DNA of 51,016 nucleotides. Source: Nitrospirota bacterium. Its GTDB lineage: Bacteria > Nitrospirota > Leptospirillia > Leptospirillales > Leptospirillaceae. Below, piece after piece: positions 2,772 to 32,809 of the stretch; position 1 is the first letter of the stretch, and each line of letters starts with the position of its first letter. The notes under the pieces are model-generated. The model did not search any database, was not told the origin of the DNA, and saw only the letters and a program-made list of their open reading frames with translations. A program made the translations under genes and the position numbers. The DNA lies in contig JAMCWM010000050.1 in the NCBI GenBank assembly GCA_023481175.1, forward strand, positions 1 through 51,016, in the 5' to 3' direction.

Positions 2772-3329
2772 TCAGGCTTGCAGTAACCGTCGTTGCCGCA
2801 GTGTCTGCATATCGCGGCGGCCGTCGGCAATCACCATGACATAGACATTTTCGGCCAAGACCCGGTAAATGATGCGGTAGGGTTTGAAGTGGAGAGGGCC
2901 CTCCACCCTCCGGGTCTTTCGACTCTGCCCTTACGGGCCTGGTAACGCGCTTCTTGTGAAGCGTCTCCCCTTGACAATGTGCGCACCGGCTCCCGCCTTT
3001 CGGCAACGGCCGGATCCGTTTCGTCCTTACCCTATGGTTGTCTGCAACTCGACCTTTCAGAGCCTGGAACTTTTGAAGCCTCCCAGGGTGAGTCTTGACG
3101 ACCTGTTTGCAACGTAGCACGCAAGCGGGCTGAGTCTGGTCAACCGGCCTGCCGATCCTGCCCTTCTTTTAGGGAATCGGTGAGCCTGTCGGCTTCCATG
3201 GCATCGGGCGTCCGGATCTTTCAAGTCCCCACGACAGCGTCCGCTTAGTGGAGGGTAGTAAACGTAGTCGTACAACTCTTTCAGGTCCCCGGACGTATCG
3301 TCGGTCAGAAATACCTGGAAAGCCCTCAG
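2772..3329 (-). pseudogene. RelE/ParE-type toxin gene split by an insertion
   Basis: Two pieces of one toxin of the ParE/RelE mRNA-or-gyrase-targeting superfamily are separated by about 360 bp. The N-terminal piece (3329 down to about 3255) reads RAFQVFLTDDTSGDLKELYD and directly follows the antitoxin; its expected ATG, which would overlap the antitoxin stop, reads CTG. The C-terminal piece (2894 down to 2772) contains FKPYRIIYRVL, VYVMVIADGRRDMQ and LRQRRLLQA before TGA, the standard end of this family. The intervening DNA (2895-3254) has no recognisable gene, and shares a 15-bp run (3227-3241) with the end of the HEARO-like RNA at 3910-3924. The toxin is therefore inactive and was broken by a mobile element or its remnant. 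Confidence 0.8.
2895..3254. mobile_element. 360-bp insertion in the ParE gene, IS200/IS605-like remnant
   Basis: This segment separates the two halves of a ParE-type toxin gene. It encodes nothing recognisable in six frames. On the + strand it ends with the 15-mer at 3227-3241 that recurs exactly at 3910-3924 at the 3' end of the HEARO-like RNA, which suggests it is the right-hand end of a related IscB/TnpB-type element. No terminal inverted repeats or target duplication were found, which fits the IS200/IS605 group because those elements make neither. The identification is an inference from the shared end. Confidence 0.4.
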
Positions 3330-3648: not shown

Positions 3649-3753
3649 TGAACTCCTGTCCGCCCATTCCCCCTCTTGGCCTATGGCCCGAGAAGGGGAA
3701 TGCGGACCATATTTATTTTTGTTTTTTTCTCGACCCACACTATAATATTTTCC
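3649..3753 (+). promoter_or_regulatory. Conserved hairpin and promoter-like leader of HEARO-like RNA copy 1
   Basis: This block is shared with the DNA before copy 2 (31905-31997): CTGAACTCCTGTCCG-type start, a CATTCCCC...GGGGAATG hairpin with an inner GGCC stem (3665-3702), then GCGGAC, TCTCGACCC and TATAAT (3741-3746). A TTGTTT hexamer lies 16 bp upstream of the TATAAT. The spacing and sequence fit a sigma-70-type promoter that would start transcription at or near ATGCGAC. The conservation is seen directly; promoter activity is inferred. Confidence 0.5.
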
Positions 3754-3924
3754 ATGCGACGTGCTACAAGGCACGTGCCCGCAAAGCGGGCAACGAGGGC
3801 CGGAAGGGACCGAAGTCAAAGCCTCCTACGATCCCGATAAGAGGCGAAGGTCCAAACGCCTTCGCGCGTCCTCGGCGAAAGAGGAATTTTCGGTCGCGAG
3901 ACCGGAAGCCCCCACGACAGCGTC
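3754..3924 (+). ncRNA. HEARO-like structured RNA (IscB omegaRNA class), copy 1, no nuclease
   Basis: A structured RNA unit beginning ATGCGAC. Visible helices: ACGTGC/GCACGT (3759-3776), TGCCCGC-AAA-GCGGGCA (3776-3792), and TCCTC-GGCGAAA-GAGGA (3869-3885). Conserved single-stranded or pseudoknot-like blocks are ACGAGGGC, CCGAAGTCAAAGCCTCC and GACCGGAAGCCCC. The second helix differs from copy 2 by a compensatory C-G to T-A change (3780/3788 versus 32024/32032). The pattern matches my recollection of HEARO RNAs, the guide scaffolds that sit upstream of IscB genes in IS200/IS605-like elements; no IscB frame (PLMP, RuvC or HNH motifs) follows here. It runs directly into a TnpB-type element end. 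An unnamed repeat-borne RNA family is the alternative. Confidence 0.6.
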
Positions 3925-3998
3925 TTCTCCGCGCCTGTTCGCCGGGGCAATCCGGCGTGTTCGTCGTCTGACCGTTCAGACGGCGAGTCGATCCCCGT
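3921..3998 (+). repeat. Element end A, hairpin-bearing right end of a TnpB-type element
   Basis: This 78-bp block is a diverged copy of 4358-4435. Shared features are CGTCT-CTCCGC at the start, a CCGGG-CAA-CC block, and CGGCGARTCGATCCCCGT at the end. Between them each copy has a short hairpin of different sequence: GTCTGA-CCGT-TCAGAC here and CCGA-CCTC-TCGG in the other, so the fold rather than the sequence is kept. In TnpB elements the right end doubles as the 3' part of the guide RNA, which would explain this. Here the end is detached from any tnpB and is fused to the HEARO-like RNA. The 3' flank differs between the copies immediately after CCCCGT, marking the element boundary. Confidence 0.45.
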
Positions 3999-4250
3999 GA
4001 AGAACCAGGGAGTTGGCAGGAAGGAATCCCTGAAATTCGCGGAGGGGAGGATGTCGACCCGCAAAATCTCGGTCTCTCGGGAAGCGCCGGAAAACTCCGT
4101 GGGGCAGTCCGGAGAGACAGGGCGTGTCTTGTATTTGTGACATCAGGCAAGATATATTCGAATCATAGGGATCGGACATCAGCGGTTCATTTTCAACGCG
4201 AAGTTCTCGGAAGACCGGTATTGCCGGACCCAGGCCAAAATGGTGGTTCT
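3999..4250. other. Gene-free mobile-element debris
   Basis: No open frame in this stretch resembles a known protein. It contains an AT-rich patch (about 4130-4160) and lies between two hairpin-bearing element ends, so it is most likely further remains of IS200/IS605-type insertions. Nothing more specific can be supported. Confidence 0.4.
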
Positions 4251-4357: not shown

Positions 4358-4435
4358 CGTCTCCTCCGCACCAGTTGGCCGGGACAACCCGACAGGTTTG
4401 TTCCCCGACCTCTCGGACGGCGAATCGATCCCCGT
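4358..4435 (+). repeat. Element end B, hairpin-bearing right end after TnpB remnant
   Basis: Second copy of the block at 3921-3998, directly downstream of the TnpB remnant, ending CGGCGAATCGATCCCCGT. The hairpin at about 4405-4416 (CCGA-CCTC-TCGG) is in the same place as the unrelated-sequence hairpin of copy A. This is the expected position of a TnpB omegaRNA 3' end / transposon right end. The sequence after CCCCGT is unrelated to that after copy A and would have been the guide or target flank. The omegaRNA role is inferred from position. Confidence 0.45.
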
Positions 4436-4579
4436 TGCCAAAAGGTGATCCGGCAGGGTGAAATCCTGAGCCTTTTGGGCCGGGGCGGAAGCTGGCCTGG
4501 GAAAACTGATCAGCGGCCATCGGCCCTTCCATGCGACGGCGGGGCACAGCCTTTTTTGCCACCATCCGAAAGGACCGGA

Positions 4580-30780: not shown

Positions 30781-31908
30781 ATGAAGGCCCAGGAAGGGAA
30801 GATGCTCGCTGAATCAGGCAAGGCCAGACGGGGAACCCGGCTGGGGCCCTTCCTCCTGCTTCTTTTCTTCGCCGCCTGCCAGGCTCCGGCGGCCCTTCTC
30901 TGGCTGCTGGCCTTCATCCCTTCCGGGTCGGAGCCGGCGGCTGTGGCCTGCCCCTCCCCCCAGAGCTGCATCGCCGTTGGCCAGGCCGGACTTTTCCTCG
31001 TCTCCCAGAACGGCGGCCAGCAGTGGTTGCCGGCCAACAGCGGTCTGGGTGCGGCGCTCGCCAATTTCAACCTGACTTCGATCGCCTGTCTTTCCGGCGG
31101 CCAGTGCACCATTGTTGGCAATCAGGGCCTGATCCTCCAGAGCACCAACGGGGGGCAGAGTTTTTCCATCACCAATGTGACCACCAACGGCAACCTGACC
31201 TTCAACGAGGTGGTCTGCCAGAATTCGGGAACCCCCGCCTGCGCCATCGTGGGGGACAACAACACCCTCCTTCTCCAGTCCAGTGCCGGGGCCGCCTGGA
31301 CTCCTGACCTCAACGTCCTGACTGCGGCCATCGGGCCCGCCAACTTCAATCAGGTCTCTCTTCTGGGTTCCTCGCTCTGGATCGCCGCATCGACCACGTC
31401 GGGAACCGGCATGAACGCCCTCCTGTACTCCGGGGACGGGGGCCAAAGCTGGAGGCTTCTCGTCGTTCCCCAAGCCCTGGCGTCCCAGGGGGTGAGCGGA
31501 GTGGGGTGCCTTTCGGTCTCCACCTGCTATGTCGACGGGACCGGAGCCCTTCTCGAGACGACAGACGGAGGAGCGACCTGGTCCTCGTCCCTTCTTCTGG
31601 GGGCGGGGGGGGCCCAGATGCCCCCGTCGCTCACGGGAATCTACATCGGTCCGGGGAGCACCATTTACGCCTACGGGCAGAACGGAGCTCTCTACCAGCT
31701 CACATCCCTCTCCGGGGGGGCAGTGTCGGGGGAGGCGGCCGTTCCCCAGATCCTTCCTCCGGCGGCCTCCCAGCTCAAATTTACCGGCATGGTCTGCCCC
31801 CAGGCCCTCACCTGCTACATCGCGGGAAATTCCCTTGCCATTTCGGGAGGAATCTTCTACGCTAGCCCCAGCGGTTCATCGGGGGCCGGATCGGCAGGGG
31901 TTCCCTGA
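30781..31908 (+). CDS. Exported BNR/Asp-box (Ycf48-like) repeat protein
   Basis: A 375-residue protein with an N-terminal signal anchor (LGPFLLLLFFAACQAPAALLWLLAFI) and a beta-propeller-like body. Asp-box repeats are visible as STNGGQSFS, SGDGGQSWR and TTDGGATWSS, separated by Cys-containing strands such as AVACPSPQSCIAVG and SIACLSGGQCTIVG that repeat five times and may form disulfides. Related to photosystem II assembly factor/sialidase-like propellers; the role is unknown but extracytoplasmic. GGAAGGGA precedes the ATG. The TGA stop lies inside the CTGAACTCCTGTCCG repeat that leads copy 2 of the HEARO-like RNA, so the C-terminus may have been trimmed by it. Confidence 0.7.
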   Translation: MKAQEGKMLAESGKARRGTRLGPFLLLLFFAACQAPAALLWLLAFIPSGSEPAAVACPSPQSCIAVGQAGLFLVSQNGGQQWLPANSGLGAALANFNLTSIACLSGGQCTIVGNQGLILQSTNGGQSFSITNVTTNGNLTFNEVVCQNSGTPACAIVGDNNTLLLQSSAGAAWTPDLNVLTAAIGPANFNQVSLLGSSLWIAASTTSGTGMNALLYSGDGGQSWRLLVVPQALASQGVSGVGCLSVSTCYVDGTGALLETTDGGATWSSSLLLGAGGAQMPPSLTGIYIGPGSTIYAYGQNGALYQLTSLSGGAVSGEAAVPQILPPAASQLKFTGMVCPQALTCYIAGNSLAISGGIFYASPSGSSGAGSAGVP

Positions 31909-31997
31909 ACTCCTGTCCGGGCATTCCCCTTCTTGGCCCGCAGGGCAAGAGAGGGTCAAGCGGACTATTTCCTTTCTCGACCCATGCTATATTTTCT
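31905..31997 (+). promoter_or_regulatory. Conserved hairpin and promoter-like leader of HEARO-like RNA copy 2
   Basis: Same order of elements as before copy 1: CTGAACTCCTGTCCG, a CCCCTTCTTGGCCC-GCA-GGGCAAGAGAGGG hairpin, GCGGAC, TTTCTCGACCCA and a TATATT -10 (31988-31993), ten bases upstream of ATGCGAC. Strong identity to 3649-3753 over about 90 bp shows the two are copies of one mobile unit rather than chance. Confidence 0.5.
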
Positions 31998-32152
31998 ATG
32001 CGACGTGCCGAAAGGCACGTGCCTGCTCCGCAGGCAACGAGGGCAGGAATTGTCCGAAGTCAAAGCCTCCGGAGAGGACGTGAGGTCCATATCATCGGGC
32101 ATCCTCGGCGAAAGAGGATGCAAAGGACGCGAGGCCGGAAACCCCTTCTACA
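31998..32152 (+). ncRNA. HEARO-like structured RNA (IscB omegaRNA class), copy 2, no nuclease
   Basis: The best preserved copy. Helices: ACGTGCC-GAAA-GGCACGT (32003-32020, GNRA tetraloop), TGCCTGC-TCC-GCAGGCA (32020-32036), GGAC-GTGAG-GTCC (32076-32088) and GCATCCTC-GGCGAAA-GAGGATGC (32099-32121). Between them lie ACGAGGGCAGGAATTGTCCG and AAGTCAAAGCCTCCGGAGAG, and the 3' part reads GGACGCGAGGCCGGAAACCCC. The covarying second helix and GNRA loop show selection on RNA structure. This fits the HEARO RNAs linked to IscB, as I recall their consensus, but what follows is an unrelated lipoprotein gene, so any guide RNA here would have to use an IscB encoded elsewhere or be inactive. Confidence 0.65.
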
Positions 32153-32167
32153 GCACTCTGTGCTCGG

Positions 32168-32190
32168 AAGAGGTTTTTTCAGCCTCTTTT
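32168..32190 (+). terminator. Possible terminator after RNA copy 2
   Basis: AGAGG-TTTTTTCAG-CCTCT with TTT following forms a short hairpin ending in a T run soon after the structured RNA. The stem is only five base pairs. Confidence 0.35.
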
Positions 32191-32232
32191 CATGATTTAT
32201 AACTTTTTTAATGTTTTGTGAAAGGAGAAATA

Positions 32233-32541
32233 ATGAAAAAATTATTGGCCTTTTCTCTGTTTGCCGGACTGCTTGCAACGGGCGGGTGTGTTTCCCTGAA
32301 CTCAAGTGCGATTTCAGATTCTAATGGGATCGCGGGGCAGACTGTTCACGTGACCGTGAGCGGCGATCCCGGCATCCTTCATCTTTCAGCTCCGAAAGAT
32401 CTGACCGTCCAGGCCGATAAAGCCCTTCTTTCCCAATGCTCCAGCGGACGTTTGACAAATGTTCAGACTCAATTGAGCACGAGAGACTTTTTAGGTTTTG
32501 TTCAGCTTTACAAGGTCCGTGCGACAGCGGTATGCCAGTAG
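32233..32541 (+). CDS. Small lipoprotein of unknown function
   Basis: A 102-residue lipoprotein: MKKLLAFSLFAGLLATGGC gives a clear lipobox, followed by a mature part of about 83 residues, predicted mostly beta, with a second pair of cysteines (SQCSSG and the penultimate Cys) that could form a disulfide. AAAGGAG is well placed. Codon use and base composition are AT-richer than the rest of the window, pointing to transfer. No family recognised. Confidence 0.7.
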   Translation: MKKLLAFSLFAGLLATGGCVSLNSSAISDSNGIAGQTVHVTVSGDPGILHLSAPKDLTVQADKALLSQCSSGRLTNVQTQLSTRDFLGFVQLYKVRATAVCQ

Positions 32542-32564
32542 TATGGTTTAAGGCTCCATTGGAG

Positions 32565-32598
32565 CAGCCTTCGATCGAATGGAAGGCTGTTCCTTTTA
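32565..32598 (+). terminator. Intrinsic terminator after the small lipoprotein gene
   Basis: CAGCCTTC (32565-32572) pairs with GAAGGCTG (32582-32589) around a nine-base loop, followed by TTCCTTTTA. Good match to a Rho-independent terminator 25 bp after the stop. Confidence 0.65.
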
Positions 32599-32809
32599 CG
32601 GATAATTGGAGAAGTATCTGTCAGATTAAAGATTTGACGCTTGCTTTCAAAATGCCAATGTTCCCTTTTCGTGATGAATAATAATAGACATCGATGTCTT
32701 GCTAAGTTTCTTTCCGGTATCGCTCTGTCGCTGGTTCCGGAGGAAATCGAAACGCCCTTCAACACCATAGGGGAACATAGCCTTCGAAAAAATCAAAAAG
32801 GAGGTTGAT

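Follow-up and report, generated by a model that had tools for sequence, protein, structure and literature searches.

The nuclease TnpB has been linked to the origin of Cas12, and a splitting of an omegaRNA ancestor has been proposed for the origin of tracrRNA (PMC10097598). In ISDra2, the guide RNA of TnpB is encoded by the 3' end of tnpB together with the right end of the element, and a pseudoknot forms between the right-end terminus and the 5' part of the scaffold (PMC10097598). TnpB can excise its guide RNA from the mRNA that encodes TnpB itself (PMC10278001), and transposon retention through TnpB cutting has been described for the family (PMC11870625). PATEs, which are short derivatives of such elements, are reportedly often moved by a transposase acting in trans (PMC7290912), and HEARO, the omegaRNA of IscB, is located upstream of iscB (PMC9956272). 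Titles and the beginnings of abstracts in the open-licence literature yielded no description of stand-alone TnpB guide RNAs in miniature elements, and no open-licence paper was found that combines Leptospirillum with TnpB or HEARO with Leptospirillum. Stand-alone guide RNAs and PATEs are said to be discussed by Meers et al. 2023 and Altae-Tran et al. 2021, and we therefore claim no new kind of RNA.

We analyzed a window of 51,016 nucleotides, a contig of a Nitrospirota bacterium of the family Leptospirillaceae. An earlier note had proposed that positions 31998-32152 encode a HEARO-like RNA, the second of its kind in the window. The repeat is longer than that, with a left end from about 31910, a right-end hairpin to 32173 and a T-run to 32179. 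Its parts, its surroundings and its relatives within the window are listed below.

31905..31909, + strand: target-adjacent-motif-like pentamer CTGAA left of the element, overlapping the propeller gene's stop codon
31910..32788, + strand: inserted stretch that relatives lack at this place, consisting of the miniature element and a short lipoprotein-like gene
31910..31965, + strand: left end (LE), imperfect palindrome GTCCG...CGGAC, 79-90% identical, over the aligned part, to its counterparts in 7 full-length elements (L036-L042)
31988..31993, + strand: possible -10 element TATATT; TATAAT stands just upstream of the 5' hairpins in 4/14 hairpin copies
32003..32020, + strand: 5' hairpin 1, 7 bp, GAAA loop
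32021..32035, + strand: 5' hairpin 2, 6 bp, triloop, containing the T-A pair 32024/32032
32035..32181, + strand: TnpB omegaRNA (reRNA) scaffold and right end, matched by covariance model R1 (78.1 bits, E 1.7e-17)
32143..32173, + strand: right-end hairpin, inner stem AGCAC/GTGCT
32174..32181, + strand: TTTTTTCA in place of the family's GAGAGTTCA or similar; the T-run to 32179 after the hairpin is terminator-like by eye
32233..32541, + strand: short gene inside the inserted stretch, with a lipoprotein-like signal by eye
3745..3924, + strand: sister copy (copy 1), which has the 5' hairpins and the scaffold and has lost its right-end terminus; R1 match 3791-3954 (105.9 bits, E 3.8e-24)
3224..3255, + strand: third right-end hairpin, a fragment (R1 16.8 bits, E 0.0083)

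The likeness of the two window copies described in the earlier note is evident, as their 82-nt cores are 84% identical and both carry the two 5' hairpins. A fourth R1 match, a weak one (13.2 bits, E 0.059), lies opposite copy 1 on the other strand. Adjoining copy 1 are a direct repeat of 109 nt (3921-4029 and 4358-4466, 71% identical) and a Phd/YefM-type antitoxin gene (PF02604, 3326-3667, - strand), and the window starts with a group II intron match (RF00029, 49-125, + strand, 52.6 bits).

By DNA search, related stretches occur in 14/41 genomes. Many of the matches comprise the left part only (about 60 nt) or the right part only (about 120 nt); several relatives have both parts, separated by 1-2 kb. 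Specifically, a Y1 TnpA (PF01797, 5.6e-37) and a TnpB (PF07282, 4.1e-19; PF01385) are encoded between the two ends in element L036, and in relatives tnpB extends into the right part with its last codons. Because homologous ends bracket TnpA and TnpB, and the counterpart of 32035-32181 is the 3' end of tnpB with the right end, we consider it likely that 31910-32181 represents a miniature, non-autonomous element of the IS200/IS605 type (MITE/PATE-like) carrying a stand-alone TnpB omegaRNA scaffold. By homology, it would derive from a tnpA/tnpB element through loss of both genes, with both ends retained, the right one including the omegaRNA scaffold. This reading draws on sequence comparisons, namely two homologous ends, a scaffold homologous to the tnpB 3' end and right end, pairing across the family, multi-copy spread and a homologous site in relatives that lacks the stretch. 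As to what defines a miniature element (both ends, no genes), the left end of the window copy is clear and the right-end hairpin is there, while the terminus is altered: the last TTCA is retained in TTTTTTCA and the preceding GAGAG is not. The inner stem of the right-end hairpin, AGCAC/GTGCT here versus AGCGC/GCGCT in several relatives, shows by eye a compensated change. A terminator scan did not call the hairpin at 32143-32173 and called an overlapping one at 32166-32190 instead (1 found, 0.7 expected by chance). Since the right-end terminus is now a hairpin followed by a T-run, the window copy has probably decayed or been altered relative to its family; with such a terminus it may be inactive or make a guide-less RNA.

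To survey the spread of the scaffold, we used R1, a covariance model built from 11 scaffolds with tnpB upstream, of which 9 adjoin a TNB domain and 2 run into tnpB-like sequence; none of these 11 has the 5' hairpins. R1 matches 65 places in 11/21 family genomes, and the order-level search covers the same 21. A TnpB TNB-domain match adjoins 15 of the 65, at 82 nt in 13 of these 15; the other 50 are an upper bound for stand-alone copies, as some are preceded by a tnpB that is degenerate or cut off at a contig end. The upstream sequence was compared for 49 of the 65 matches, partial and duplicate ones being among those left out. It is tnpB-like (identity >=0.67) in 21/49 and not so (<=0.60) in 28/49, by cut-offs of our own and with a few upstream values exceeding their shuffled mean. 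Among the 28 matches without tnpB upstream, 21 start at the same scaffold boundary (first-part identity >=0.78), behind several different upstream sequences. This constant 5' boundary suggests that copies that lost tnpB kept the same RNA unit. The 60 nt upstream of the window copy are 0.50 identical to tnpB versus 0.39 when shuffled, a value that counts against our main reading. When 198 genomes from across the phylum were searched at the DNA level, 10 had matches, and every one of these belongs to this family. The hairpin pattern occurs in 2 stretches of the genome_contigs set, both from the Nitrospirae MAG YS4.bin12 (the source genome is possibly outside this set). It has no exact match in viral_contigs, and a virus origin was rejected on this ground.

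We next compared the insertion site with its counterparts. All 8 loci that were read, in seven other genomes and at a second locus of the source assembly, lack the insert, and there the propeller gene and the gene after it, which is DUF3332 in the window, directly adjoin, end to start. The pentamer at these sites is CTGAA in 5/8, the others reading TTGAA, CTAGAA and CTGAG, and 9/14 short copies have (T/C)TGAAC at their left junction. The left junction CTGAA thus fits an element insertion; the right junction is not a simple one. At 879 bp, the insert exceeds the miniature element of about 270 bp, so the stretch did not arise by a simple single insertion, which counts against our main reading. 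The second locus in the source assembly (G000:C21:17814-19084; 6% contamination) holds the same gene pair, with a propeller gene of 81% identity, and perhaps reflects a mixed bin.

An alternative, which we regard as possible though unlikely, is that the locus is an ordinary dead MITE, whose scaffold is passenger sequence in the right end and whose stand-alone RNAs do nothing. The state of the copies fits this alternative, as the right ends of both window copies are damaged and many family copies are decayed. The constant scaffold boundary behind differing upstream sequences speaks against it. Pairing was examined in the scaffold across the family, in the stand-alone copies and in the 5' hairpins.

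At the level of the family, the scaffold covaries. In 23 scaffolds picked as near complete, with decayed copies left out (alignment A4), 14/40 pairs show double changes, compared with a shuffle mean of 6.1 and 0/500 shuffles reaching 14. The paired cells amount to 88.3%, a share that is partly given by construction since the structure is the consensus of 11 of the 23 sequences; slid partners are 35-46% paired and give 6 to 12 double-changed pairs, 12 at slide -1. The 11 scaffolds with tnpB, taken alone, have 5 double-changed pairs, a number reached by 17/500 shuffles. Additionally, one scaffold hairpin loop is GNRA in 23/23 aligned scaffolds. Third codon positions of tnpB (11 scaffolds with tnpB) are 0.82-0.96 identical in five scaffold windows versus 0.43-0.81 upstream, and equal or exceed first and second positions in 4/5 of the scaffold windows. 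Because the scaffold covaries and third codon positions are conserved where it overlaps tnpB, these sequence data support selection at the RNA level for the family.

For the stand-alone copies, the picture depends on whether they are pooled. Twelve stand-alone scaffolds together have 369/452 cells paired, whereas random equal change gives a mean of 341 and 0/1000 runs with as many, relatedness being uncorrected and related copies not independent; as it stands, this result opposes the dead-MITE alternative. Their pairing is weaker than that of the 11 scaffolds with tnpB (81.6% versus 95.2% of cells), which favors it. Taken singly, the window copy (W2) has 29/38 cells paired against a null mean of 25.4, reached in 88/1000 runs, and for copy 1 (W1) the null reached the observed value in 843/1000 runs. 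The corresponding numbers of runs per 1000 are 653 for L047, 616 for L044, 570 for L045, 478 for L049, 170 for L048 and 109 for L055. Only 4/12 stand-alone copies were reached in fewer than 20/1000 runs, namely L050 (18), L043 (15), L071 (9) and L046 (2). With a pooled result of this kind and few single copies significant, selection on structure is supported for the stand-alone set and not for either window copy alone. This copy-by-copy test led us to weight the dead-MITE alternative up and to weight down both the main explanation and the decoy reading set out below. The region 32000-32181 itself folds better than 200/200 dinucleotide shuffles (z -3.59), as expected from the earlier description of a structured RNA; the selection on RNA structure claimed along with it is supported for the family and not significant in the window copy by itself.

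The 5' double hairpin was found in 14 copies from three genomes (7 in the source genome, 2 in G002 and 5 in G019), which were recognised and aligned as A3, with L164 and L172 damaged. In each of the two hairpins 93% of cells are paired, an argument against the dead-MITE alternative. The double changes, on the other hand, fit that alternative: there are none in hairpin 1 and, in hairpin 2, only 32024/32032, in the window copy only, while the 14-copy alignment has 3 double-changed pairs, a number reached by 96/500 shuffles and no higher than the 3 to 4 of the slid controls (slides -1 to -3). The C-G to T-A double change reported in the earlier note can be read directly from the bases, 3780/3788 being C/G and 32024/32032 being T/A. 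Across the 14 copies, 11 have C-G at this pair, the window copy T-A and L172 U-G, and in L047 the pair is broken (C-A). As main evidence the single pair does not carry; it is consistent but thin, because the double change is confined to the window copy and the totals do not rise above the slid controls. Of the GNRA-type loops mentioned there, the loop of hairpin 1 is GAAA in the window copy and ACAA in copy 1. A formal sigma-70 promoter scan returned none at either window copy, so the -10 candidate is one read from the alignment; the empty scan is likewise what a dead MITE would give.

The mechanism that we favor for the miniature element with its stand-alone scaffold is as follows. TnpA from a full-length copy would move the intact mini-element. 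Intact stand-alone copies would be transcribed from their own start beside the 5' double hairpin, and the RNA would bind, in trans, the TnpB that a full-length copy supplies from another place. The sequence adjoining the element on its right might then serve as guide, and TnpB would cut the empty donor site, whose repair would restore the mini-element. The source genome has a long open TnpB frame of the matching type (L042). Aligned to 9yyg, a solved TnpB-like nuclease and AI-designed relative, it shows acidic residues at three RuvC places; the alignment to TnpB 8h1j covers two of the three, both acidic, and does not reach the first. We take these aligned acidic places in 9yyg and 8h1j to be the RuvC catalytic places. 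Nine Y1 matches in the source genome (89% complete) were compared, among which the sole cognate is a stretch of 71 residues with 77% identity; the remaining ones have at most 46% identity to the cognate TnpA or are unmatched. A search for targets of the flank (motif plus the first 11 nt of the flank, <=2 mismatches) gave nothing beyond background, with 4 forward matches and 1 reverse, one of them the own locus, versus 3 and 1 for the reversed control. This outcome and the Y1 comparison weigh against our main reading.

A bolder variant holds that the hairpin-headed copies form a self-transcribed class of their own among the TnpB guide RNAs that act in trans; as parasites of a parasite, they would take TnpB (and TnpA) from full-length elements. 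In this view the window copy, its right end turned into a terminator, would be a guide-less decoy that occupies TnpB and so restrains the nuclease. We consider this variant doubtful.

Still more doubtful is a function in cis, in which the RNA would be a leader of the downstream lipoprotein-like gene or would have been recruited as its terminator or sRNA. The neighbors named in the earlier note are indeed there, a BNR/YCF48-type propeller protein (PF14870) upstream and a short protein with a lipoprotein-like signal (by eye) downstream, and both the position just upstream of the gene and the terminator-like site at 32166-32190 fit such a role. However, sister copies lie at other places in the genomes, and the lipoprotein homologues L109-L111 (in G002, G009 and G003), taken with 213 to about 330 nt of upstream DNA, contain no R1 match at E<=1. 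The protein of 32233-32541 has no Pfam match at E<=0.01. DNA homologous to its gene occurs at other sites in G002, G003 and G009, and 32180-32790 has no second copy in the source genome.

Finally, that the feature is itself a HEARO, as first proposed, has a negligible chance: although HEARO is present in the source genome (5 matches, 3 above cut-off and one weak one in the window), model RF02033 has no match in 31900-32300 even at E<=10, and the homologous DNA of intact relatives, which carry tnpA/tnpB, runs on into tnpB as its 3' end rather than lying upstream of iscB. HEARO is also an RNA of IS200/IS605-type elements. Up to E 10, the window holds a single match to it, at 2959-3184 (- strand, 29.6 bits, below cut-off), so that IscB-type and TnpB-type guide RNAs stand side by side in one genome, less than 1 kb apart in the window.

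The miniature element with a stand-alone scaffold remains our preferred reading. Multi-copy guide RNA units freed from tnpB and equipped with their own 5' module would show a separation of nuclease and guide, and would allow a test of miniature transposons that use TnpB in trans. Among known systems, HEARO (RF02033) is like the present case in that it occurs elsewhere in the source genome, and differs in its location, which is upstream of iscB instead of at the tnpB 3' end, and in its model, which the window feature does not match. The haloarchaeal sotRNA families RF02656 and RF02657 are likewise RNAs that overlap tnpB (PMC12558985), and neither matches at E<=10. The omegaRNA (reRNA) of ISDra2 TnpB resembles the window element in its multi-stem scaffold reaching up to the right-end terminus and in a TTGAT-like motif left of the element (PMC10097598); unlike it, the window element has no tnpB upstream, carries a conserved double hairpin before the scaffold and has an altered terminus. 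The PATEs and ends-only IS605 derivatives of Halanaerobium are also short and protein-free with both IS605 ends (PMC7290912), whereas here the omegaRNA scaffold is kept, signs of structural selection extend across the family, and a 5' module is common to 14 copies. Measured against these systems, the feature is real, ordinary in kind and unusual in form, most likely a TnpB guide-RNA scaffold that stands alone inside a miniature transposon and has its own 5' module.
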